Made by a program: the position numbers and the translations under genes. This document shows positions 166-64,000 of a stretch of 64,000 nucleotides of DNA, one piece after another (positions within the stretch are counted from its first letter, which is position 1; every line of letters begins with the position of its first letter). The notes beneath the pieces are model-generated. The model made no database searches. It was not told the origin of the DNA and saw only the letters and a list, made by a program, of their open reading frames with translations. This stretch comes from Eudromia elegans (taxonomy: Eukaryota; Chordata; Aves; Tinamiformes; Tinamidae), in contig PTEX01000133.1 in assembly GCA_003342815.1 (NCBI GenBank), forward strand, positions 1,170,484-1,234,483. Direction: 5' to 3'.

Positions 166-3100
166 CCTGATGGACGCCTTGTTGCAGTAGACCCGAGTGA
201 TGGCAAGCCAGGTGGGCAGCTCCAGCACATTCTGCAGCACCTCTTCGTCCAGCTCCAGGTTCGTCAGTTGTCCCTGCCCTTTCAGTGTGCTCAGGTTGAT
301 CTTGTCCGGCGAGAGGTTCTTAGTAAACCTGCAAGAGAAGGAAGAGAAGAGTCTAACAACTCCCAACAAAGCTTTAGCTGAGGCTAAAGGAGTCTTTAGA
401 GACTTCTTTTAAGTCTAGGAACCTAGCAGATTTGTGCTGCTTTGTGAAACCCCTCCTGACATATTTGAACCCAGGGCATCTCAGTCACCTCACGGGAAGA
501 AGAAAAAAAAACCCTGACTCTTGGAGGTCCTTTCAAATGAAATTCAGGACCAAAAAATGAAAACTCCTTCTAAAGCACCAGAAACCTGAACTGGTAGAAT
601 TGCCCAAAGGCAAAAGCAAAGCAAGGGGAAAAAAAAAGCACACACACACACACACATGAACAAGAGCAAACAGTTTCATGCCTTGGCAGGTGCTAGATCA
701 GGAGTAAACATCCAATTTTCTCAATTCTTTTCAAATTCATTGACAGAGGAAAGTAAAGGGCCCTTAATAAACCACTTACACAGCTGTGTGACTGTTCGTT
801 CAGCATACCCAAGCATGCAAGCAAACGCCCTCCTTAGCGATCGAGCTCCAGGCCCGTCCTCCTCTTGGCCACCAGCAGCTGCTCCTCTCTCTACTCTCCA
901 TCACGCCCCGTTCTGCCCTTTCCCCTGCCCCGGCATCTATGAATCCCTCGGGTGCTAGAAATATAAATGCCAAGAGGGAAGCGGTGTCAGGAGCACTCCG
1001 GCTCCTGGGATAGAGCCGTGAGCACCTGCATTGGCTGAAGGCACCATGGGCCCTGAGGAAGGACGGGTGGGTTGGTGGGCACCGGACCACCAGGGTAACA
1101 CGCGGGTTGCCAGCACCTTGCCAGGGTGATGCTTCCCTTTCCGCGTGGAAGGGGAAGGCTCCCAGCTCGTGGCCAAACGTGGTGGCCATTTCCCCCTCTC
1201 CTCTGCACTAATTCTAATGCTGAGCAGCAGCCTGGGCAGCCAGGGGAAAAGAAAGGGCCCTTTTGTGTAGCAGAGCAGGATTAGGCCCTTGCTTAGTCAC
1301 GCGCTGCCCTTTCCAAAGCCCCTTGCCAAAAGGAAGGGCTTGCTGGGCGAGGAGCAGCCGGACGGCGCCGAGCCGCTGACGCCAGCCCTGCCCCACGGTC
1401 GCAGCAGCTCCCGGAGCAGGGGGTGACGCAGGAGCTGCGAGCTGCCACAGTCACATCCATGCGGGCCTGGATATGGAGAACAAAACAAGAGGAGCCTGAA
1501 GAGGGAGGTCAAATGCACTGGGCAGCTGGCAGGTTCCCGGGGCGGCCGCGGGCAGCGATCAGCTCACGGAGCGGTCAGGCCGAGACCAAACCAGCGTCTC
1601 GACCCTCACCTGGTCCCAGCATGGCCAAAGGCAGCGGGTCTCGCCCAGAATGGTTGTGCTGGAGCAAAGGGCACGGACACATCTGAAAGGGAGCATTCCT
1701 TCTCCGCCGCGCGTACGCACATGGAAAACGAACAGCGCAAAGGAAGCTGGAGCTGGGAAACCAGACACTGGGGGAGGGCGATACGAAAGGCGACCTAGCT
1801 ATAACAAATAACTATTTGTATTCACAGCTAGGGCTGCAGAAGTCCAGGGGAGATGGAGAAATAGGAGTTTTGAACACATCGAGAAAATTTATATGTAAAA
1901 CTGAGATAAATTCTCTCCTTCAAACCACACACTCAACATTCCTCAGCCTAATCCTATTACCAGCTCCAATGCTCTCAGTTTCTCACCCCATAAAGGGAGC
2001 TGAGACCTTCAGCTGGAACTGCCATCAAAGTTGAGACATTTTGATAACACAGGTAGTTGCGACTTACAACCAGGGAACAGATGAAGTGTGTTTGTGATAT
2101 TGGGAACTTCACAGATAGCAATTTTTTTATCTTTACATCTTGAAAGAAGCTGCTTTGATCTCTCGGGAAAGGCAAAGGCAGCGAGAGCGGATACGATTTG
2201 AAATATTTCTTGGCAGTCGCGCTCCATTCATACTCATCAACAGCCACATTTTTGGCAGCACGGATTACTGGCTTGGAGAAAAGTGAATGAAAATACTTGG
2301 TAGCTATTAGGAAATCTATTATGAGTGGAATATTAGCACTTCTTTCTTTTAAAATCTTCTACCATTAAGCCATTAACCTTGAAGGCTCCTTTTGAACCTG
2401 TCAGGATTAACATGACAAACAGATGAAAGCAAACCCCTTTCTCCCATCTTCTAAGGAGCCCTCCTTGCAGAATCACTACCTACACCCACGCACTTACAGG
2501 AGCACGGACACAACCCCACGACCAACCCCGTGAGCAACACTGAGGCTCCTGAAGCATCTGCCAGCTACACACGTCCGTCTGCTGCACACTTGCTAAACTG
2601 CTCCATCAGAGCCACTAGCATCCCCAAAATGTTCCCAAATGGCCAAAACCAGCTTGCTGTTCTCACAGTGAAGGCCATGGGAAGCACAAGATAGATGCTC
2701 TGAGCAGTGACAGCTGGAAAGACCTGCTCTGTCAAGTGTTCTCCCTAACTCAGAGGTCTGTGGAGATGAGTTTTCCCTGTGGTCCATTCTCCACTGCTTC
2801 TTTCCATGTTCAATGGCACTAGCCTTAATGATTTCCACCAGCTCTTATGAAAAAAACAGACACAGTCATTAACAGCACTATCCTGATTTCTCAGCAGAAT
2901 GAAGGTCTCTTTCCTTCCTAAGAAGCTAACAACACTCAGATGATTTACACCTCAGTGGCTTCCTTTGGACTTGGCCTAAAAGAATCTTTATGGAAGCCAT
3001 CAGCTTTCTTGAGCAGTTTCTGAGATGATGATTTGATATGCTTTAAAGCCTCATTTTATTTTTTAGCTGGGGAAGATACACGATCATCGACCTATTTGCT

Positions 3101-6100
3101 CAGTCATCAACTTGAAAAAAATATCAAATGATCTCCCTGCTGCTGCCCAAATCATCAGCTTGTGCATCCAGAGGCCACAAGCCCAGTGACTGCAGGAGGG
3201 AGCTTTGCCAAATCTGATTGCCAGCCTGAAGTCAAGCTATAACCATAAATAATAAAGTTATGCTCACATTTATAGCTGTCTGGCAGCACTGTCTGCAACC
3301 AACCAAGTACATAGACAGAAAACGTCAGGAAAAATGTCTGAAATCATAAAACTTCTCCTCAGCTCCATCTCTCTTCATCTTGTCACCATGTGGTACAGAC
3401 ACTTTGTCCTCAGGAGGTTCAGCTATTCAAACCAGATTTGCTGCCTCAACTTCTTTGCCTGCAATTATTCAGTAATCACAGTCAATTGTAGGCGACCAGC
3501 ACCTGCAGCTGAGTGCATTAATCTCCATTAGCCTGTTTGTTACTGCGGTTATTATACACACGAACTGATGAGCAGCACACCAGTGACCTTGATTTTACTT
3601 AGTGACAAGACTAATCTATTGGCACAAGCAAATAACTGTCCAACTTACAGTGCTCGCCACAGTTGCAGACAGCAGATGGAAAAAACACTCCAAATACAAT
3701 TAAGCCAGGAAGAGGGTAAGTTGTCAGCTGCAACCTGAAGAAAGACAAGCAACATTAAGAGCCCCCGGGAAGGCTCTACAGACAGGGTTTTTGCCTTAAC
3801 AAGGGGAAGAGCATGGAAGAGATTAAGAACTTGCTTTAATTTGGAGCACAAACAGGTAATTTAAGTAACTACGGCAGACTGACAGCGACTGGACATGGAC
3901 AAGAACTACATTCTGGTCACTGCAGATTTGTTCTTCACTCAACTTCTTTCCCAAAGTCTTTCTGGGTTTGGGTTAGAGCACGCCACATAATGTGAATTCC
4001 ACTGTTTACTTTGGAATGTGCTTCTACAATCTCCATTACAGGACATTTCCTTTCATATTAAAAATCCTTATCCCAGGTGCCAAAGATCATGTTCACTTGG
4101 GAAAAAGAGGTGTGTGGTTTGTAAAAGGAAAGATCAACGACCTCCAGCATGGAGAAGCTTTCAAGGAAGACAGGAGCAGAAGCTGAAATACTAAATATAT
4201 GATGAACTTGGGCAAGTGTCTGAGAATGAACTTAAAAATAATTGTGGAGGAAATAAAATTGGGCAAGTGACCAAACTTCTGTAAAAAGGGAAAAAATTAG
4301 CTGTCTTAGAGACATATAGAAAGGAGAAGTAAAAGCCCTTTTGGGGAAGAAAAGCCAATTTACTAACTCAGAGTTTTGTACAACCGTGGAATAATCTCTC
4401 TGGTAAGTGTATATATAGCACTGCTCAACCAAGAGCAAGATTTGGGGACCAAAAAGAGGAATACATGGAATCAGCAACAGGTTACACTAATCAAGACCAT
4501 CTGATACTTTGCATTAATCTAGTCGGTATCATATCATATTGGCCTAATTAGTACGGAAGGCATCACATTTTGCTGATGGAAGTTATCTCCACAGCCAGGG
4601 CCTTGTGTGCGCAGTACTGGTGCACCCCCCCTTAGATAACAGTGTTTTCTTAGGGTGGTCACTGAGGTCCCAGGGTGATGAAACAGCTGACCTCGCCCTG
4701 CTTAATTTACAGAACCAGCCCTGCAAACGGGTGAGCCTTTAACACTGAATTAGCAAACCTGTTAGGCATATCAGCAGGCTTAAATACTAAGACTACATGC
4801 TTTTTTTTTTTTTTTTTTTTTGCCCTTAAGAGAAAACTGGGAAATTATAGAGGCTCCAGGTCAGATGCATTTCTCCCACCACGGCCACGGCTCCTCCTGC
4901 ACAAGCGGAGCTGCAGAGCAAACCAAAGTCAATATACAAAGAAAAGAGGCACATTTTTTTTTTTTGGCAGGAGCAAAACACCAAGGCGCCAAGTAACTCT
5001 TCTGCTATTTGTAGGCCATCAGCTGGAAGCCCAGGGAGGTTTAAATGGCAGCACCCTGTGCTCTGAAACCTGGAACGTGAAGCTGTTCCAGCTGCCAGGG
5101 AATTTCCCCTGCTAAACCTCAAGCAAATAGTAACTCACAAGAAAGAAAACTAGAAAGAAACGTTTCAGTACAGCATTTCTATCACCCCACTGCAAGCCCC
5201 CTCTTTCATGTTTTAAGCCATTATCCGTCTTGCAGTCTGATCTGCAATTTTGTTTCCAATGCGTAGAAAATAAAAGGTTATTTCAGAGCTCAGACACAGC
5301 TGAGGGACTGCGGAGGAGGTAAGAACAGAAGGGATCTGGGAGAAACAGCACCAGCAAAGATGACGCAGGCTAAACAGCCCGTTTTTGTGGCATTTTCCTC
5401 CTAGCCTGAGGGGTAACTGAGGTTTGGTGCAAGGCTATGGAGAACCTCGGCAGCTGCCATGAATATACATCCATCCATGGGGGTATCCAGGAGCCGCAGG
5501 AGCTCCTGGACTGCAACTGGTTTTTGCTGCAACAGGAACCTATTTAGCATTCCAGAAACGGCACACGCTCCTCCTGCGAGCCGAGGGGAAGCGGTTGGAA
5601 ACAGCTCCCATGCAGCAGCCGACAGTGTGGGGCTTTGGGGAAACTGCAGCGCAGCAACCCTGATGTTAGAGATGAATTGTGCGAAAGGGAAAGGCCACGT
5701 CCTGTCATGCGGGCGCTCTGTTCCCACCCCCATCTGCAGCAGAGAAGCGGTGCCTGCTTATCACTTCACCCCACCATGGTCTGGGAATCGGTCTCTCCAC
5801 AGAGGACTCCTCTATATTGAAATAAAGATGCATATTACTGAAACAAATGCATATAATACACACAAGATAAATGCAAGCCAAAAAACTACCCAATAACTCC
5901 TAAATGATAGGGATTAGATGCTGTTTCTCGCCTGAAGAACTGCTCTGCCTCTTCTCCTTGTATTTTCTGGAAGAGAAAGGAATGTGCTGTCCCTTGGGAT
6001 AATGCATCTCACTGGCACTTCTGCCACCCAGCCTCTCAGAGAAGCTAGAACAGCAGCATGACCACCGGGTGCAACAGACTCTGCCCTGTCTTGACAGGGC

Positions 6101-9100: not shown

Positions 9101-10420
9101 AGGGAAACCCCAGAGCTTTGCCATGTCAGGTCCAGCAGAAACGCACTTAAATCAACGCGCTGAGTGGATCTAGCAGCGGGCTCTGCTACGCTGCTTTTCT
9201 GGTCCAGTGCCTGGAAAGCAACTGGTGACTCAGAACCGCCTCGCGCAGAGCAGGCTGCTCATTTAAAGTTTGCAAAGATCCTTCCGCGATTCCAGAAACT
9301 CTCGAGATTCATCACCAGCCTCCGAGCAGCTGGTACAACCCAGGCACGGAGATGCAGGATTCCCAGCTTCCCATTCCCTGCTCTACCGCAGACGTCGGGT
9401 TGTTTCAACCCTCTGCAGGCCGTCCAAGCCCCTTACTCTGCACCCGGGTTTCTCCTCTGGTGAAAAGGAAAAGCCCCCAATGCCCTGCGGCTCTCGGAGC
9501 GCTCGGCAGAGCGGCACGGGCCACGGTGTCGGTGTCCTCGGGGACGCGTCGCCCTCCTGTTTCGTCACGCTGTTCTTGTCTTCCAGCAACGCGCGGGCAG
9601 GACTTGCCCGTGGCCAGAGGTAGCCAAGAACCACCAGCTCTTGCGCAGTCGCCCTCAAACTGCGGCGCCCCGAGATGCCCAAGGTCAGGCGGCGAGACGG
9701 GCGCAGAGCAGCAGATAAACCCGCTTTTATCAAGCCCCGGGCTCTCCCGCTTTCGGCACGAGACGCTCTTCCGCAGCGCGAGGATTAGCGCTGCTGACAG
9801 ACTTCACGGAAAAGGGCAAAGCATCATTGAAAACAGCCGAACGGGGCCCAGCTGAGCCCGTGCGCGGCTGTCACCTCGGGCCCGGGGCCACCTCGTCCTT
9901 GCGCTCTGCACCGTCCCCCTTCCACGTTTCCTGCCCGTTTCCCGAGGCCTGGCCCTCGCTCCGGAGGGACGGGCACCGCAGCCGCCCCAGGCGCCCGGCC
10001 GGTGGTGGGGAGGGTGGCGCTGGGCACGGCTCAGCCCCACAGCGACGACGGCGGGACCCCCGGGCTGCTCCTCAGCCCCCCGCTCAGGCCCTGCAGCCCC
10101 AGTCCGCTCCCCCCACCCCCCGCACTCCTAACGCTCCCAGCCTCAAGTGCCCCCAGCTCTGGGCCTCGGCCCCCAGCCCCGAGCCCTTGAGACCCCTGGC
10201 CTGGCTCGAAGCGTCCCCCAGAACCCCCCCCAACCTCCCCGCCATATCCCGACTCCTCAGCCCTTAATTCCCCCTCACGCTCCCAATACCTCCACCCGCC
10301 CTTAACGTCCCCCGCTTCGCCCGCCCTCCAGGCCCGAGGGGCTCCCCGCGCGGCTCCCCCCTGCGGCGGCTCTCACCGGGAGAGGTGCTTCAGGATCTGC
10401 TTCTTGATGATGGCGGCCAT
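166..10420 (-). CDS. UHRF1BP1: UHRF1BP1 (BLTP3A), 5' part: coding exons 1 and 2
   Basis: Partial gene on the minus strand. Coding exon 1 is 10377..10420 (44 nt; ATG at 10420-10418; donor GTGAGA). Coding exon 2 is 166..328 (163 nt; acceptor CTTGCAG; donor GTGAGC). Joined, they give 69 codons in one open frame, beginning MAAIIKKQILKHLSRFTKN and ending NKASIR, which matches the start of vertebrate UHRF1BP1. This is the chorein-type N-terminus of a bridge-like lipid-transfer protein of the VPS13 superfamily, thought to move lipids at endosome/membrane contact sites. The human protein is about 1440 aa, so over 95% lies left of position 1. The exon junction splits an Arg codon (CG|G). The 5'UTR and promoter fall in the N gap that starts one base upstream of the ATG. 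Identification is firm; the exon 2 donor is placed by phase and consensus. Confidence 0.95.
639..656. repeat. (CA)9 microsatellite
   Basis: Nine CA dinucleotides directly follow an A-rich stretch in UHRF1BP1 intron 1. Confidence 0.95.
4801..4821. repeat. T21 homopolymer
   Basis: Uninterrupted run of 21 T in UHRF1BP1 intron 1. The flanks show no recognised retroelement body or clear target-site duplication. Confidence 0.9.
9480..10420. promoter_or_regulatory. CpG-rich flank of the UHRF1BP1 promoter
   Basis: GC- and CpG-dense sequence runs from the first exon into intron 1. It is the visible half of a probable CpG-island promoter; the transcription start side lies in the assembly gap. The limits were judged by eye. 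Confidence 0.55.
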
Positions 10421-10755
10421 NNNNNNNNNNNNNNNNNNNNNNNNNNNNNNNNNNNNNNNNNNNNNNNNNNNNNNNNNNNNNNNNNNNNNNNNNNNNNNNN
10501 NNNNNNNNNNNNNNNNNNNNNNNNNNNNNNNNNNNNNNNNNNNNNNNNNNNNNNNNNNNNNNNNNNNNNNNNNNNNNNNNNNNNNNNNNNNNNNNNNNNN
10601 NNNNNNNNNNNNNNNNNNNNNNNNNNNNNNNNNNNNNNNNNNNNNNNNNNNNNNNNNNNNNNNNNNNNNNNNNNNNNNNNNNNNNNNNNNNNNNNNNNNN
10701 NNNNNNNNNNNNNNNNNNNNNNNNNNNNNNNNNNNNNNNNNNNNNNNNNNNNNNN
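10421..10755. other. Assembly gap (335 N)
   Basis: Every base is N. The gap starts immediately upstream of the UHRF1BP1 ATG and ends inside a tandem repeat, so it probably contains the 5'UTR, the promoter and further repeat units. Its true length may differ from 335. Confidence 1.
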
Positions 10756-11110
10756 CCTGCAGCACCGCCCCCTGGCAGCCTCCAGCACCGCCCCTACGCA
10801 GTACCGCCCCCTGGCAGCCTCCAGCACCGCCCCTACGCAGCGCCGCCCCCTGGCGGCCTCCAGCGCCGCCCCCGCGCAGCACCGCCCCCTGGCGGCCTCC
10901 AGCACCGCCCCCGCGCAGCACCGCCCCCTGGCGGCCTCCAGCACCGCCCCCCTGCAGCACCGCCCCCTGGCGGCCTCCAGCACCGCCCCCGCGCAGCACC
11001 GCCCCCTGGCGGCCTCCAGCACCGCCCCTACGCAGCACCGCCCCCTGGCGGCCGCCAGCGCCGCCCCGCCCCTACGCAGCACCGCCCCCTGGCGGCCGCC
11101 AGCGCCGCCG
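10756..11110. repeat. 39-bp minisatellite with a CTCF-like motif in every unit
   Basis: The 11-mer CCGCCCCCTGG starts at 10765, 10804, 10843, 10882, 10921, 10960, 10999, 11038 and 11082. The period is therefore exactly 39 bp for eight units, then 44 bp for the ninth, which follows a 5-bp insertion. The first two units read CTGGCAGCC where the later ones read CTGGCGGCC. The array abuts the N gap, so the true copy number is probably higher. It sits between the UHRF1BP1 start and the SNRPC 3' end. Because 39 is a multiple of three, open frames run through it on both strands; these Pro/Arg/Ala-rich frames are artefacts. Confidence 0.95.
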
Positions 11111-11603
11111 CCGCCGCGCGGGCGGCAAAACCCTAAGGGAAAAAGGAGCTCCCTCGGCCACAAACACCCAACTCTCGTTTTTTCACACCCAAAATCTCTC
11201 AGCGCAGCGTCTCAGCTCACGCTTGTGGTGGAGCTGGTGCCTGGGCGGCACTGAAGGAGCCCCTGGCCCTCACTCCACCTGCACCAGGGTGGTACAGCAC
11301 AGCAGCACCATCTCACTGCGTGGCACCGTCTCCCTCATTAATACCACGGTGTTGTTCTGAGGCCTTATTACTAAAACCAAACATAATTCCCATTTTGAAG
11401 ACTTTATAATGCAGACACCGATACAGCCCTGGATGTACAGTGTGTAAAACAGACTGCTGAAGGAGAAAGGAGAGGGAAGGCAAGGCAAGCTCAGTGCAGC
11501 CCAGGGGCTGAGAGGAACCCCCAGCAACCAACACATCTGTGTCGGACAGAAAACCACACACAGAACAAGGCTCAGACGCTCCTTACACAAACCAGCATCA
11601 ACA

Positions 11604-11609
11604 TTTATT
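11604..11609 (-). terminator. Distal poly(A) signal of SNRPC
   Basis: AATAAA on the minus strand, about 210 nt downstream of the SNRPC stop. This fits the short 3'UTR expected for the gene. Confidence 0.6.
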
Positions 11610-14800: not shown

Positions 14801-15339
14801 GTAGTAATCTTTCACATTCTCTTTGTGCTTTCTGCCACTGCAGTGGGTTTTTCTCACAGACGGCTGAGAAAAAAATAACAGAAATCCAGAAATTACTGAA
14901 ACGTTTGTCAAAGTAAGGCCATGTAGCTTAAAAAATCTAACACTGGCTGATGTTGGAGCACAGGCAGAAAATGCTGCGGAGCCGGCCAAGTCACTCCCCT
15001 GCTTCTGGCTCTTCTGGTCACAGCACATCAGAGCAACAGGATGTGGCTGCGGGGAGTTTCTCACCTCCCCACGCACCGTTTTCACCCCGCGGGACGCGGC
15101 ACTCACCGAGTCATGGGTGAGGTACGTGTCGCAGTAATCGCAGTAGAACCTGTGGGGGAAGAGCCCGTTATGGCCGACACCCCTCCCGGGCGCGCGCGGG
15201 CCCCGAGGGGGCGCCTGGCCCCGGGGAAGGGGCAGAGCCCTGAGCTCGCGATGACCGCGATCCACCCCCCCGACCCGCTTAGCCACCGGGACCAACGGAA
15301 CCGGCCCCGGTACCCGCGGAACGCCGCTCACTTAGGCAT
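11820..15339 (-). CDS. SNRPC: SNRPC, U1 small nuclear ribonucleoprotein C
   Basis: Complete gene with six coding exons: 15332..15339, 15107..15149, 14755..14863, 13669..13758, 13206..13310 and 11820..11944. The total of 480 nt encodes 159 aa plus stop, the same length as human U1-C. The N-terminal U1-C zinc finger has ligands C6, C9, H24 and H30; the cysteine pair is in exon 2 and the histidine pair in exon 3. Residues 31-52 include the [15 protein letters not shown] helix. From about residue 60 the protein is Pro/Met-rich with MMP- and GPP-type repeats and ends in TRPDR. U1-C stabilises the pairing of U1 snRNA with the 5' splice site in the spliceosome. All junction phases match and all introns are GT-AG. 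Exon 1 holds just 8 coding nt. Its start lies in a CpG island divergent from ILRUN. Confidence 0.97.
11945..15331 (-). other. SNRPC introns
   Basis: Five introns: 15150-15331, 14864-15106, 13759-14754, 13311-13668 and 11945-13205. They contain no recognisable second gene. Intron 3 carries an A20 run (13802-13821) just upstream of exon 4 on the plus-strand map. Intron 5 is AT-rich with one 156-codon plus-strand open frame that resembles nothing known. Confidence 0.8.
13802..13821. repeat. A20 homopolymer
   Basis: Run of 20 A (poly-T on the SNRPC coding strand) in SNRPC intron 3, 43 nt upstream of exon 4. Confidence 0.9.
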
Positions 15340-15460
15340 GGTGCTCCCCGCCACCGGCGCCGCCGGAAGTGACGCACTCACAGAGCGCCACGGTGCCGCT
15401 GCAGCGCGCTTTAACCGCACTCGGCTGCCGCAAGAGGGCGCCCCAGCGCCCTGGCGCAGC
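15340..15460 (-). promoter_or_regulatory. SNRPC promoter region
   Basis: CpG-rich sequence directly upstream of the SNRPC ATG. It contains CCGGAAGTGACGC (15363-15375), an ETS site fused to a CRE half-site, typical of housekeeping promoters. At 15428-15442 it contains a CTCF-like CCGCAAGAGGGCGCC. No TATA box is visible. The transcription start is inferred, not located. Confidence 0.6.
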
Positions 15461-32100: not shown

Positions 32101-35100
32101 ATGTGTTGTTAAAAACTAATACCCTGCTCTAATACCTTCCAGGACTCTGCTTGGTTTGTCTGCCAAAAGACCAGTTTGTACAGTAGAACCATTGCTGAAA
32201 GAACAGCAGGATTTAACAGACTTATTTCCTCTTCCCTCTCTCCTCCCAGCTGCTGCTGGCTTTGCAGGACAGTTACTACAATTTATCATCTCCTGAGAGA
32301 TGTGCTTACTGAAATAGAATGACATAATCATCATTTCATTTTATAGAGCTTATCAGTTGCAGCACTCTAGGCACCTTGCAAGCCTAAAACCATTAAAACC
32401 GATAAAAATCACATAAATAATTTAAACTAAACCATGTTGCTGGGCTGCCAACCCTTTCAGATGAGACTTCATACACGACTCCCACACACTGTAGTGTGAG
32501 GTCAGTTAATCACTCGGCTCCTCTTTCAGAAACCTCTCTACTGTAGCAATATCCCCCGTGCCAGAGATCCCATGTTGTTTATTCGTATCACGCTCTCGCT
32601 GCAGGACTGTAAATTTCACACATCGGGAGTCGACAAGAAAGCCAATCCCTGCCATGCCTTCCCTGAACTATCTACTGGGATTAAATTATCAAGGAAGCCT
32701 TTGGAAAGGGCACTCTTTGAGGCTGCCTTAGGTAATGATCAGCATCCACTGTCCTTGCCTCAGAAAAGGCTTAGAGTTGTTCTAAGCTTCCTGGTGGATC
32801 AGGCTTTCCTTAACTGTTGCTACCAACCTGAAGCAAGCAGCAGTTTTCCCAAGTCAAGCAGTATTCCCAGTGTCAGTTACATGGATTTTCTTTTTCAGTT
32901 GCTGCACAGAGTAACTGCCAGGTCTTTGAGTTTTTTCCTGTGGAAAGAAGAGCTAGAGGTTATTTAAAGAGGAAATGGGAATTCTCATGGTGGTTGCACA
33001 AGGACCAGTCTTGTCTGAGCAATGCACTTTACCATGTTCCTTGTGGGTTGCATGCATCTTGAGAGCCCTTGGACTGTTTGGCAGTTGCACAACTGCTCTA
33101 ATGAGGATATTTTATCCCTTTTCATACAGCCTGAAAGCTTTTCCCGGTGCACTGTCGTTAAGCCTTCCTTCTTCTTAACCCTAGGGACGGAGGCCTGGCC
33201 CCCAGGAGTTTGCCTGAAGTACGTTGGGGGAGACCAGTTTGGCCACGTCAACATGGTGATGGTCAGGTCCCTGGAGCCCCAGGAGATGGCAGACGTCAGC
33301 GTGCAGATGTGCAGCCCCAGCACGGCAGGGATGTATCAGGGACAGTGGCGCATGTGCACTGCCACAGGACTCTATTACGGAGGTGAGTGCTTCCTTCTTC
33401 GGAATGCTCCCATTCCAGGCAAATTAGATGTCCTTGCTGGCCCCTTGCGGGTGCTCTACTGATATCTAAATGATATTTTAGCCATGTTCTTTCCTCATGT
33501 GACTTACTGCAATGCTGCTGGCACATTGCTACCCTCTGTGAGGATGCAGCTGACTGGGAAGGTCCATGGTTTCCAGTCAAGAAATCTAGATGACTGGCAG
33601 ATTTCTAGTCCTCTGGAAATCTGATGGCTGGTGCCCACTGCATTTAACCCTGAAGAATGTGACTCTGGCCATGTGCAGAAGGCAGAAGTCTGCCAGCTCG
33701 GAGGTTAAATATAGAAAATAAAGAAAACACTAAGGGAGCTCTATTTTCTTGGTCAGCACAGGTTTGTTTTCTAAGCTGTGGGATGAACTGTAGATTACAC
33801 AGAGCACTGGAGAACACTGGAGAAGGAAGGAACTTCGGGGTGTCTCCTTGAGACTCTTTGTGTCTGGGCAGTTGGGAGCATGGGCTTGAATGAGAAACAG
33901 TGACCCTGAGTCAGAAACAGCATGGGTCTTCTGCGCAGAATTGTGAGAAACCGTTTCAGTAACCCTACATTACACGTTTTGAGAGAAAACAACTGCAAGT
34001 CAACATGTGCTTATTAAACGGCAGCTTTTGCCTCCCGGCGGGTTTGGGGCTGGTCCCCGTGTTGCAGCCCTGGTTTTGGGGGCGTTTTGCACCGTTTCAG
34101 CGAGCCAGGGGTGGCGGCGCCGCGGGCGGGCGGCAGGGGGCGCCGCAGCGCTGCCTGGCGGCGCCCGCCGCGGGCCGCCCGCTTCCCGGGGATTTGGGAG
34201 CCTCGGGGCTTTTCCGTAGGGATTTCCAACCTTGCCAGGATTTAAGGGGTATAGTTGTATATATGTGCAGGGCACAGATAAGCATAGGTAAGAGTAAATA
34301 TCTTCTCTGTTCATATAGTAGTTGTTCTATCCAGTAGGTTGAAAGTTCATATAGTAATATCCCAAAGGTAGTATGTAAAATACCTAATGTATTTTTTATA
34401 GAACTAGTTTCAAAGTATTGTTTCAGAGTGAATTGTCATAGCCTATGAACCTTTTAAATGACTCTCTTAAAAGATTTGACTACTGAAAAACAACAAAACT
34501 GAACAAAAAAGAACCCAGGCTTGTACCCTCAGAGCAAAAATTTGGGTGGTATTTCTTGGACACTTGGTTTTACAAGTGCATCCTTGGATAAAGTTGCTTT
34601 AAGTTTTCTTTAGCAGTAAAACTCCCACTGGCAATCTGCAGTACGGAGTTTCAGATGAACGTGACAGTTTGTTGGGATTGTTTTTGTTTTTTAAATTAAT
34701 TTCTCTAAACTTTTTTTGAGAGTTTTCTCCCATTTTCCTTTTTTTCCTGCCATTGTAAAGGATGGAATCCGTGTTCTGTTTTCCTCTTCTCGTCCCTTCT
34801 CCATAGCTCTATTCAGTGCTGACCTCAATGTCCTTCCCTTTCCCTAGATGTCATCTGGGTGATCCTCAGCGTGGAGGTTGGAGGACTTCTAGGAGTAACA
34901 CAGCAGCTGTCATCCTTTGAAACAGAGTTCAACACACAACCGCATCGCAAGGTAGAAGGAAACTTTAACCCATTCGCCTCTCCACAGAAGAACAGGCAAC
35001 CAGATGAAAACAACCTAAAAGACCCTGGGGGTTCCGAGCTAGGCACAATCAGCAAAAACACATGGGGGCCTGCTCCTGACCAAATTGAACAAGATCAGAA

Positions 35101-53203: not shown

Positions 53204-53425
53204 AGCATCCTTGGTGTGTTCAGGCATCCGCAGGAGTTGGAGCATCCTTGGGCAGATGGAGCCAACTCCGTGTTGTATCATCCTAGGTGGTTGGGAGCAT
53301 CCTTGGTGGACTGGAGCATCTTAGGTGGTTTGGAGCATCCTTGGCAGGTTGGAGCATCCATGGCATGTTGGAGCGTCCTTGGTGGACTGGAGCATCCCCA
53401 GGAGTTGGAGCCTCCTTGGCAGGCT
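53204..53425. repeat. 19-bp minisatellite upstream of SPDEF
   Basis: Units built on AGCATCCTTGG plus a GTGGACTGG-like tail start at 53296, 53315, 53334, 53353, 53372 and 53391, exactly 19 bp apart. Degenerate units extend left to about 53204 and right to about 53425, for about 11 units with one phase break. It lies about 350 bp upstream of the predicted SPDEF promoter. Confidence 0.85.
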
Positions 53426-53918: not shown

Positions 53919-56828
53919 GTAGGACCGCGGGCAGCGCCCGGGGGGGTGTGGGGTGCGCAGCCCCCGCTGCCCGCGCTGCTTCGCACGTCGCCCCTCGCAC
54001 CCCGGCGGCACCGGGAACGTCCCGGTGCTGCCACCGCTGCTGTCACCGTCCCGCTGCCGCCGCCCCCACGGGAATGGGAGCCCAACGGAGCCGGTGCCGG
54101 CAGGTGCCGCGGCTCCGTCTGGCTTTGGAGGCACCGGGGGCATCTCTGCCACCTGCATCCAGCCTGTCCCCATCCTCCCCGAGCCGCCGGCTTCGTGTCC
54201 CGCCGCGCCGGTGCCAAAGCGCCTTGTCTCCGCGCTGGGTTTTGGTGGTTCTGCTCGGTTAGCGAAACACAAACGCGCCGGGGCTGCCAAGGCCCCACCA
54301 TGCGGCCCGGCCACCGGCGCTGCGAGGGCGGCCCGACCCGCGCGGCCGCTGCCCGCGGGGACACCCGGAGCTGCCGGGGTGGCCGCGACCCTCGGCGGGT
54401 GCACAGAGGGGGGTTGCAGCCGGAGCCCGAGATCCATCCGGAGCCACATTCCCGCCGGCATCCCCCTGTCCACACGTCCCAGGAATCCGCCCTGTCAGTG
54501 GCTCCGGGCTCTGTAGCAAGACCCCCCCCTCTGTGTCTGTGCTGTCTGCGCCCCCCCCGCAGCACCTCAGGGCCCCGAGTCCCTGCTCCGGCCATAGGGA
54601 GACTCCTGCCCATGCAATTCCCGCACCTCGGAGCATCCCGGCGACTCCTGCTCCTCTGCAGCGGGAAGCGCCAGCTACCACCCATGGCCCCACCCCGGTG
54701 CCACTGAAGCAGCTCCTGGTCTCAGGACCCTGTCTGGGGGATGGTCACAGAGGGGACATCGCCCTCCCGGTGGGAAAGTCCTGGAATGCGGGAGCACCTG
54801 CTGCCAAACCCCAGGAAAAGGGGGCAACCCCCCACCTCGCACCTAAAACGGGACATGAGGCTGGGAAAGGGCTCTTGGAAGCGCCCTGGGATTTGGGAGC
54901 TCTCCCGACTCGTCTCCCTGAGCTGGGCCACCGCACAACCTGTTTAACCGCAGATTTAATTTTAATTAACGGGCCCATTGTTCGCGGGGCTGGGCTGGAG
55001 CCTGCCTTTCTTTCCCCCTTGGCCGCGCTTTCTCCGGAGTCGCTGGTGCGGGTTGTGCTCGGGCACTGGGGCAGGCAGTGCCGGGGCACCCGCCCTGGCT
55101 GCGGGCCGGAGCGCTGGGCGCTGACCCGCGTCCCCCGGGGCGCACGGAGCCCTCGCGGCCCCCTCGGCCTTCGCACGGCTCTGGAGGGAAGCAAAAACCT
55201 CGGAAAAGCGCCCGGGGCCCCGCGGCTCGTCCAAGTTGGTGGCACTTGTTTGTCTAAAGTGTTGCAAGAGCTAATTCCCTAATCGCTTCCTCTGCTGCCC
55301 GCTGCCATTTTGCCGTGGCCGAGCGCCCGTCGGGGCCGTTGCGGATCCCCACGTGCCGCCCGGTGCGCGCGGAGCGAGCGGAGACCCCGGCAGCGCCCGG
55401 AGCTCGGAGCCGGGGACGGGCACGGGGGCTCCCGGCGGCTCCGTCCGTGTCCGCAGCGCCCGGGCGAGCAAACACGTCCCGCCCAGCGCGGGGCCGGGGC
55501 CGCTCGTGCCAGCGCCGCGGGAAGGCAAACAGGGGCCCCCGCCCTGGGAGTACAGCCGGGTTTGCCGGCTGCCTCCCTGCTCCCGCCGCAGCGGAGCCTC
55601 CTTCCCCGGGAAAGGGCCGGCCGGCCCTGCCAGGCTGCTCCGCACGGCTCTGCTGGAGGGGAGAGCGGGAGCCGCGTCCCCGGAGCATCCCAGAGGCTCC
55701 AGAGCGGGACCTGCATCCCCGGAGCATCCCAGAGGCTCCTGAGTGGTACCCGCATTCCTAGAGCATCCCAGAGGCTCCTGAGTGGTACCTGTATCCCCGG
55801 AGAGCATCCCACAGGCTCCAGAGTGGTACCCGCATTCCTAGAGCATCCCAGAGGCTCCGGAGTGGTACCTGCAGCTTGGGGGCACCCCGGGGGCTCAGCC
55901 CTCCCGGCAGGTTGCGAGGGGCCGCTCCGCACAAGCTGTTGCCGCTTCTCTTTTGTGCCGGGAGCAGCGTGAGGTTGGATTTAGGGCTGATCCGCTAAAG
56001 CTCTGCACTTAATCCAGAGCAAATGAAGCAGAGGTTTGGGAGCAGGCGGCATCTCCAGGGGAAACGGGCTGGAGGGGAAGTGCGGGGCAGGGATGTGGTC
56101 CCATCCTCCCTCCTCACTCCGGCCTTCACGGGACCACCAAAAGCACCCCATTGGCTTGGTGGATGGCACCAGGGATCACAATTTCCTGCTCCGGAATGAG
56201 GGATCCCTTTCCTGGATCCCCATCTGTGCAGCTGGGATGGAGGCGAGCCCCTCGCCGGCTTCTCCAGTGCAGGGCAGTGATTTTCCCAGGCCGTTGCACC
56301 TACTTTTAGTGTGGAGAAATAAATAAATAAATACGTGGCCCTCCAGCACCTCCCTGCTCGTGGGCTCCTCTTCTCCCGGTCCTGGGGCTGCCGCTGCGAG
56401 GTTGCCATGGCAATGCAGCAGGATCCGCTCCTTCCCGGTGTGGATGGGATGGGGCTCCACCGGCAGCGCCGTCCCCGCAAAGCCACCGCAAAGCCGTGGG
56501 GTGCTCGGCGGGTGCTGCAGGGCACCAAGGCAGTGGCACCGCTTTCCCTGTGCAGAACCGGCTCCCTATGGCTGGGACGCCCCGCACCGCTTCCCTCCCG
56601 TGCACCAGCCCGGCCAGGGCACTCAGGGGGCCTCGCACCGTCCCCGGCAGCACCCGGCACCGCACGCGCCGTTGCCGTCCCCGCGCGCTGCCCGCTGACC
56701 CAGAAGCCGCCCCGCGCGGCGCTCGGCTCCCCGCGCGGCGCCGTTCCCCCTCTAACCGGCTTAGCCGCTGCCTTTGAGCTCACCGCGAGCGTCCCGCGAG
56801 CGTCCCGCTCTCCCTTGTGTCCCGGCAG
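53919..56828 (+). other. Predicted SPDEF intron 1
   Basis: 2.9 kb of very GC-rich sequence between the predicted non-coding exon and the first coding exon. It contains a 39-bp minisatellite at about 55.7-55.9 kb. Long overlapping open frames occur on both strands and are composition artefacts. No other gene is recognised. Confidence 0.6.
55675..55880. repeat. 39-bp minisatellite in SPDEF intron 1, five copies
   Basis: AGCATCCCAGAGGCTCC-type cores start at 55684, 55723, 55762, 55803 and 55842, giving spacings of 39, 39, 41 and 39 bp. Alternate units share GTACC and CATTCCTAG segments, suggesting duplication of two-unit blocks. The sequence is unrelated to the 39-bp array at 10.8 kb. Confidence 0.9.

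Positions 56829-61164: not shown

Positions 61165-64000
<2,836 letters not shown>

Follow-up and report, generated by a model that had tools for sequence, protein, structure and literature searches.

The array between SNRPC and BLTP3A

The window, which is the whole 64,000-nucleotide stretch analyzed here, lies on contig C39 of the 944 Mb, 723-contig assembly of Eudromia elegans. It contains a GC-rich unit of 39 bp that is repeated nine times head-to-tail (10759–11114), between the 3′ end of SNRPC and the first coding exon of BLTP3A (UHRF1BP1). Both genes are on the minus strand. The ATG of SNRPC is at 15337–15339, with a match to zf-U1, and AATAAA at 11604–11609 (minus strand) is the likely SNRPC poly(A) signal; the array starts ~490 bp beyond it. 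The first coding exon of BLTP3A (MAAIIKKQILKHLS...) was identified as a minus-strand open reading frame (ORF) at 10378–10420, with its ATG at 10418–10420. The minus-strand ORF beside the assembly gap described below reads MAAIIKKQILKHLSR. The next exon (ORF 151–408) matches the Pfam entry BLTP3A_B. We take the gene to be BLTP3A in preference to BLTP3B from synteny with the neighboring genes. To the right of the locus is an ORF presumably of ILRUN, for which Pfam gave no match.

Unit alignment and TRF (10759–11109, period 39, 8.9 copies, 91% matches) both bear out an earlier note on this DNA, which had described nine copies of a 39-bp unit with one spacing of 44 bp. The step from motif to motif is 39 bp seven times and 44 bp once, and unit 8 is 44 bp long. 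With head-to-tail units in the range of ~10–100 bp, the array is a minisatellite. Its minus strand is the G-rich strand and carries the motifs discussed below. The CpG observed/expected ratio is 0.84 at a GC content of 0.83, which suggests that most units have been free of germline methylation.

Between the array and the BLTP3A start codon there are 335 N (10421–10755), which puts the two 336 bp apart if the assembly gives the gap its true length. Earlier assemblies of several vertebrates, birds included, are reported to have tended to lack GC-rich promoters and 5′ exons (PMC9516821). Since the gap abuts the left edge of the array, its true length is concealed and nine units are a minimum; since the gap also adjoins the start codon, the transcription start site (TSS) may lie inside it. 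The array had been placed at the UHRF1BP1 promoter. It is indeed next to the BLTP3A start codon, but the gap conceals the TSS. The exact 20-mer GCCGCCAGGGGGCGGTGCTG occurs at six places in the 944 Mb assembly, all within the array, and a dispersed repeat family was rejected for this reason. A 21-mer of the unit was not found in viral contigs, a result of little weight.

CTCF motifs, core CpG and upstream motif

The units were scored with the CTCF matrix MA0139.1 (maximum 26.1 bits). This is the matrix named for scans of 12 genomes, including galGal5 (PMC9077971). Units 3–9 carry a CTCF core motif. Units 3–7 (10837–11031, core CCGCCAGGGGGCGG) score 18.65 bits in unit 3 and 18.95 bits in units 4–7, and units 8–9 (11032–11114) score 20.69 bits. 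Units 1–2 (10759–10836) have a decayed core, CTGCCAGGGGGCGG, and reach 10.27 and 10.86 bits. All nine motifs lie on the minus strand. Compared with the published 14-base core (as given in PMC10287918), units 3–9 match 10 of the 11 specified bases and units 1–2 match 9. With seven strong motifs at steps of 39 and 44 bp, the array has the motif arrangement of a clustered CTCF site (2xCTS) and is a candidate for one.

These results agree with much of the earlier note, which had all copies pointing the same way and the standard unit, read on the minus strand (GGCCGCCAGGGGGCGGT), agreeing with the quoted CTCF consensus at 15 of 17 positions. Matrix scoring of each unit with MA0139.1 left the CTCF reading standing in seven of nine units. 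The single-base change noted in units 1–2 (CTGGCAGCC on the plus strand) is also present, but it is far from mild: the base altered is the second C of the core, and the scores given above compare with 18.95 bits for the standard unit.

Within the surrounding 314 kb (301,746 called bases), units 3–9 outscore every other CTCF hit, the next being 18.23 bits. By itself, the 14-base core is no rarity in GC-rich DNA: the same 314 kb holds 12 other sites with at most one mismatch from it, including two exact matches. Two other sites are near the SNRPC start. A single CTCF-like motif of 16.56 bits (15425–15443, plus strand) faces the opposite way from the array, 86 bp upstream of the SNRPC ATG. At 15201–15214 (plus strand) there is a perfect 14-base core, CCNNNAGGGGGCGC, yet its matrix score is 11.47 bits.

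In seven units a CpG occupies the core step C2–G3. Within the core, only a methylated CpG at positions 2–3 is reported to matter, weakening CTCF by 0–2 kT, and an optimal upstream site is reported to cancel the effect (PMC10287918). This is in line with the methylation sensitivity that the earlier note expected from CpGs inside the motifs. In units 1–2, CCG at core positions 2–3 is replaced by CTG, as would be expected from deamination of a methylated CpG.

The upstream motif contacted by ZF9–11, sought 2–8 bp before the core, was found in none of the nine units. The best match was 5 of 10 bases except in unit 9, where it was 6 of 10; this is the level of 5,000 random positions. Only about 13–15% of all CTCF sites are described as having such a motif, although most of the insulators surveyed do (PMC12885311). 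No unit therefore has the form of a CTCF insulator with an upstream motif, and the suggestion that the array is an insulator or boundary loses ground, since the motif reported at characterized insulators is absent from all nine units. Given a methylation-sensitive core CpG and no upstream motif, the array, if bound, should be methylation-sensitive within the range of 0–2 kT.

Nine of the 39 unit columns are variable, one of 14 in the core and eight of 25 outside it (Fisher one-sided p 0.08). Even this value is generous, given the relatedness of the copies and the uncertain alignment of unit 8 in its last columns. Core conservation within the array is not significant by this measure, and selection on the core inside the array is unsupported.

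Chance, and comparison with other arrays

The window contains seven hits of at least 18 bits, whereas 20 block-wise dinucleotide shuffles averaged 0.25 and never gave more than 1. Nine independent hits were rejected as a description of the array, as the copies share one origin. Significance was therefore computed for a single unit and for arrays genome-wide. Of 20,000 mononucleotide shuffles of the unit, two reached 18.95 bits, and dinucleotide shuffling gave the same result (2 of 20,000). Among 69 tandem arrays in the 314 kb (43 with GC of at least 0.6), only this one exceeds 8.81 bits. The window holds other GC-rich minisatellites at 53279–53419 (period 38), 55672–55873 (period 39) and 61706–61845 (period 32), whose best CTCF scores are 5.19, −0.83 and 8.81 bits, respectively.

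Across the assembly, a strict 12-base core occurs in same-direction pairs at no fewer than 15 places with a spacing of 22–52 bp and no fewer than 12 with a spacing of 53–83 bp. The same search with the core read backwards, a control that contains a CpG and is not an exact match, gave none in either range. Among the matches listed, the pairs fall on ten contigs: C39 (this array), C81, C103, C125, C136, C184, C202, C236, C245 and C347. Seven of the nine other contigs were scored, C202 and C245 (one core pair each) being left out. A 19-mer of at least 12 bits is present at the pair on C81, C103, C125, C136, C236 and C347; C184 has none at its core pair. On C125 (L037 578–631), two same-direction CTCF-like motifs are 35 bp apart, and one of them, at 22.38 bits, scores above any hit in the window.

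Only C39 and C136, among the matches listed, have seven or more motif copies. The C136 array (L033 998–1405) resembles the present one in having eight same-direction CTCF-like motifs, seven with the core CCGCCAGGGGGCAG, in a GC-rich repeat. It differs in its unrelated spacer, in its steps of 35–62 bp and in its scores of 13.3–13.7 bits. It holds one N, which is spanned by its 35-bp step, and a reading by eye of ORF lists covering 8.5 kb turned up no recognizable gene.

These counts bear on a neutral explanation, which we regard as a serious possibility. In it, the array is a GC-rich minisatellite grown from one G-rich unit that happens to contain a CTCF core, and no role of the core, whether bound or not, is under selection. 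Recombination and GC-biased conversion in birds would favor CpG islands, so that promoter islands grow and homogenize GC-rich repeats; zebra finch recombination is reported to overlap CpG islands (PMC12047795). Repeats with at least seven copies and a period of 22–83 number two in 302 kb, this array included. The mean probability that shuffling a local unit yields the core is 0.0007 (43 units). By a rough scaling, one or two such repeats per 302 kb correspond to ~3,000–6,000 in 944 Mb, of which 2–5 would bear the core by chance, compared with the two seen; this estimate rests on two long repeats in a GC-rich region and may be too high, which tells against the neutral explanation to that extent. 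The count of core-bearing long arrays is close to the chance estimate and gives no ground for enrichment. The p value of 0.08 for core against spacer also favors neutrality. The rarity of the motif argues against it, both in the 2 of 20,000 shuffles that reach the unit score and in the one local array of 69 that exceeds 8.81 bits.

Possible roles of the array

The interpretation that we favor, tentatively and with less than even confidence, is a promoter-proximal minisatellite whose unit holds a CTCF core, probably occupied by one or a few CTCF molecules when unmethylated and with an effect on BLTP3A. The GC-rich minisatellite would have arisen by tandem duplication of one strong-core unit in a CpG-rich stretch upstream of BLTP3A. 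The outcome is a homotypic cluster in one orientation, in which seven cores are good and two have decayed. As long as this stretch lacks methylation, CTCF would most likely sit on one or a few units at a time and rebind quickly, so that the array would raise local CTCF occupancy instead of holding nine molecules. CTCF is described as placing ZF3–7 on 15 bp and ZF9–11 on 9 bp, joined by a linker of ~5 bp, or roughly 30 bp in all (PMC12885311). With a footprint of this size and a period of 39 bp, neighbors would be tight and nine molecules at once unlikely. Of the multivalent CTCF platform suggested in the earlier note, the strong cores are borne out in seven of the nine units; the two degraded units and the improbability of full occupancy weaken it.

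All of the array motifs are forward relative to BLTP3A and point into the gene, for which reason a promoter-proximal effect on BLTP3A would be likeliest, be it activation, enhancer contact or a block to antisense transcription. Stalling of cohesin at the array is a second possibility. In mouse cells, forward motifs just upstream of the TSS are reported to activate genes, and CTCF sites further upstream to block antisense transcription (PMC12695661). Which of the two would apply at the array depends on the TSS, which is hidden by the gap.

CTCF-bearing tandem repeats are already known. Human simple tandem repeats and SVA VNTRs are bound by CTCF and BORIS; there, too, GC-rich CTCF-like units form a clustered site, and binding in vitro is described as sensitive to CpG methylation (PMC5007689). 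Those arrays were characterized by ChIP and EMSA and are co-bound by BORIS (PMC5007689), whereas the present one is known from its sequence. The accounts of clustered 2xCTS share with it two or more closely spaced CTCF motifs and associate them, unlike single sites, with promoters and active transcription; they differ in being ChIP-defined, with at least two motifs per peak and often both CTCF and BORIS, and in not being described as minisatellites (PMC4562119, PMC10832218). The SLC6A4 promoter and intron VNTRs are likewise gene-proximal and reported to bind CTCF, but their units of 22–23 and 16–17 bp are unrelated in sequence and have known alleles and reporter effects (PMC2848977). Published work also covers synthetic CTCF-site arrays (PMC7200164) and insulators made of CTCF sites in tandem (PMC7087399). 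The report on chicken and zebra finch gives no full BORIS orthologue for either, only a 108-bp trace in chicken (PMC2515639). With BORIS reported as missing from these birds, a CTCF-only version would be what differs from the human arrays. The present locus is named in none of the titles listed by literature searches made with terms other than the gene names.

If CTCF occupies the array, the locus would offer a natural series of near-identical, same-direction cores, with two single-base variants at the methylation-sensitive step, beside a promoter. It would allow a direct test of site number and spacing against CTCF occupancy and promoter output, and could show whether methylation-sensitive sites can be preserved through conversion among repeats. 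If CTCF does not occupy it, the array would be a GC-rich promoter minisatellite of the ordinary sort, and a warning that a single lucky unit, copied nine times, mimics nine pieces of evidence.

A more elaborate proposal, which we consider improbable, is a methylation-gated CTCF array that maintains itself in a lineage without BORIS. Each good core has its CpG at the one methylation-sensitive step, with no upstream motif as a buffer. If the CpG island is a recombination hot spot, GC-biased conversion among the units might offset the decay of CCG to CTG seen in units 1–2, and the number of copies could set CTCF occupancy and hence tune the output of BLTP3A and SNRPC.

CTCF could also be incidental to a promoter array of GC boxes. 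SP/KLF and EGR-type zinc fingers bind GGGGCGG boxes, and in this unlikely alternative they would drive BLTP3A. The minus strand of the array holds 18 GGGGCGG, three GCGGGGGCG and one full GGGGCGGGGC, and the array is upstream of the BLTP3A ATG. Most boxes, however, continue with T or C instead of G, leaving a single perfect SP1-type 10-mer.

We infer CTCF binding, its control by methylation and an effect on BLTP3A in the promoter-proximal minisatellite that we prefer. Alternatively, the locus could be a domain boundary: the array, facing left, and the motif at 15425, facing right, would flank SNRPC as divergent CTCF sites that keep two contact domains apart. Motifs of at least 14 bits occur in the order minus at −11920, the array, plus at 15425 and plus at 34127, which is the divergent class reported as enriched at human TAD boundaries (PMC7422557). 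However, shuffles give a mean of 1.35 hits of at least 15 bits per window (maximum 4, 20 runs), compared with two outside the array, so the partner sites, including that at 15425, may be due to chance. The divergent pair was therefore rejected as proof of a boundary. With no upstream insulator motif in the array either, we consider a boundary very unlikely.

Least probable of all, and hardly to be expected, is a G-rich terminator or R-loop element that halts SNRPC read-through before the BLTP3A promoter: a start ~490 bp beyond the probable poly(A) signal of SNRPC and a G-rich non-template strand (plus-strand skew −0.39, G4Hunter 1.10) would suit it, but G-quadruplex motifs with loops of up to 12 bases were looked for in the array and none was found, and the single-strand fold of units 3–4 is ordinary (z −1.18; 26 of 200 shuffles as good).

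A cruciform was considered and set aside; the single-strand fold, computed for units 3–4 only, was not unusual. Units 8–9 (11032–11114) hold a perfect 14-bp palindrome, CTGGCGGCCGCCAG, beside the core; in units 1–7 one base of it differs.
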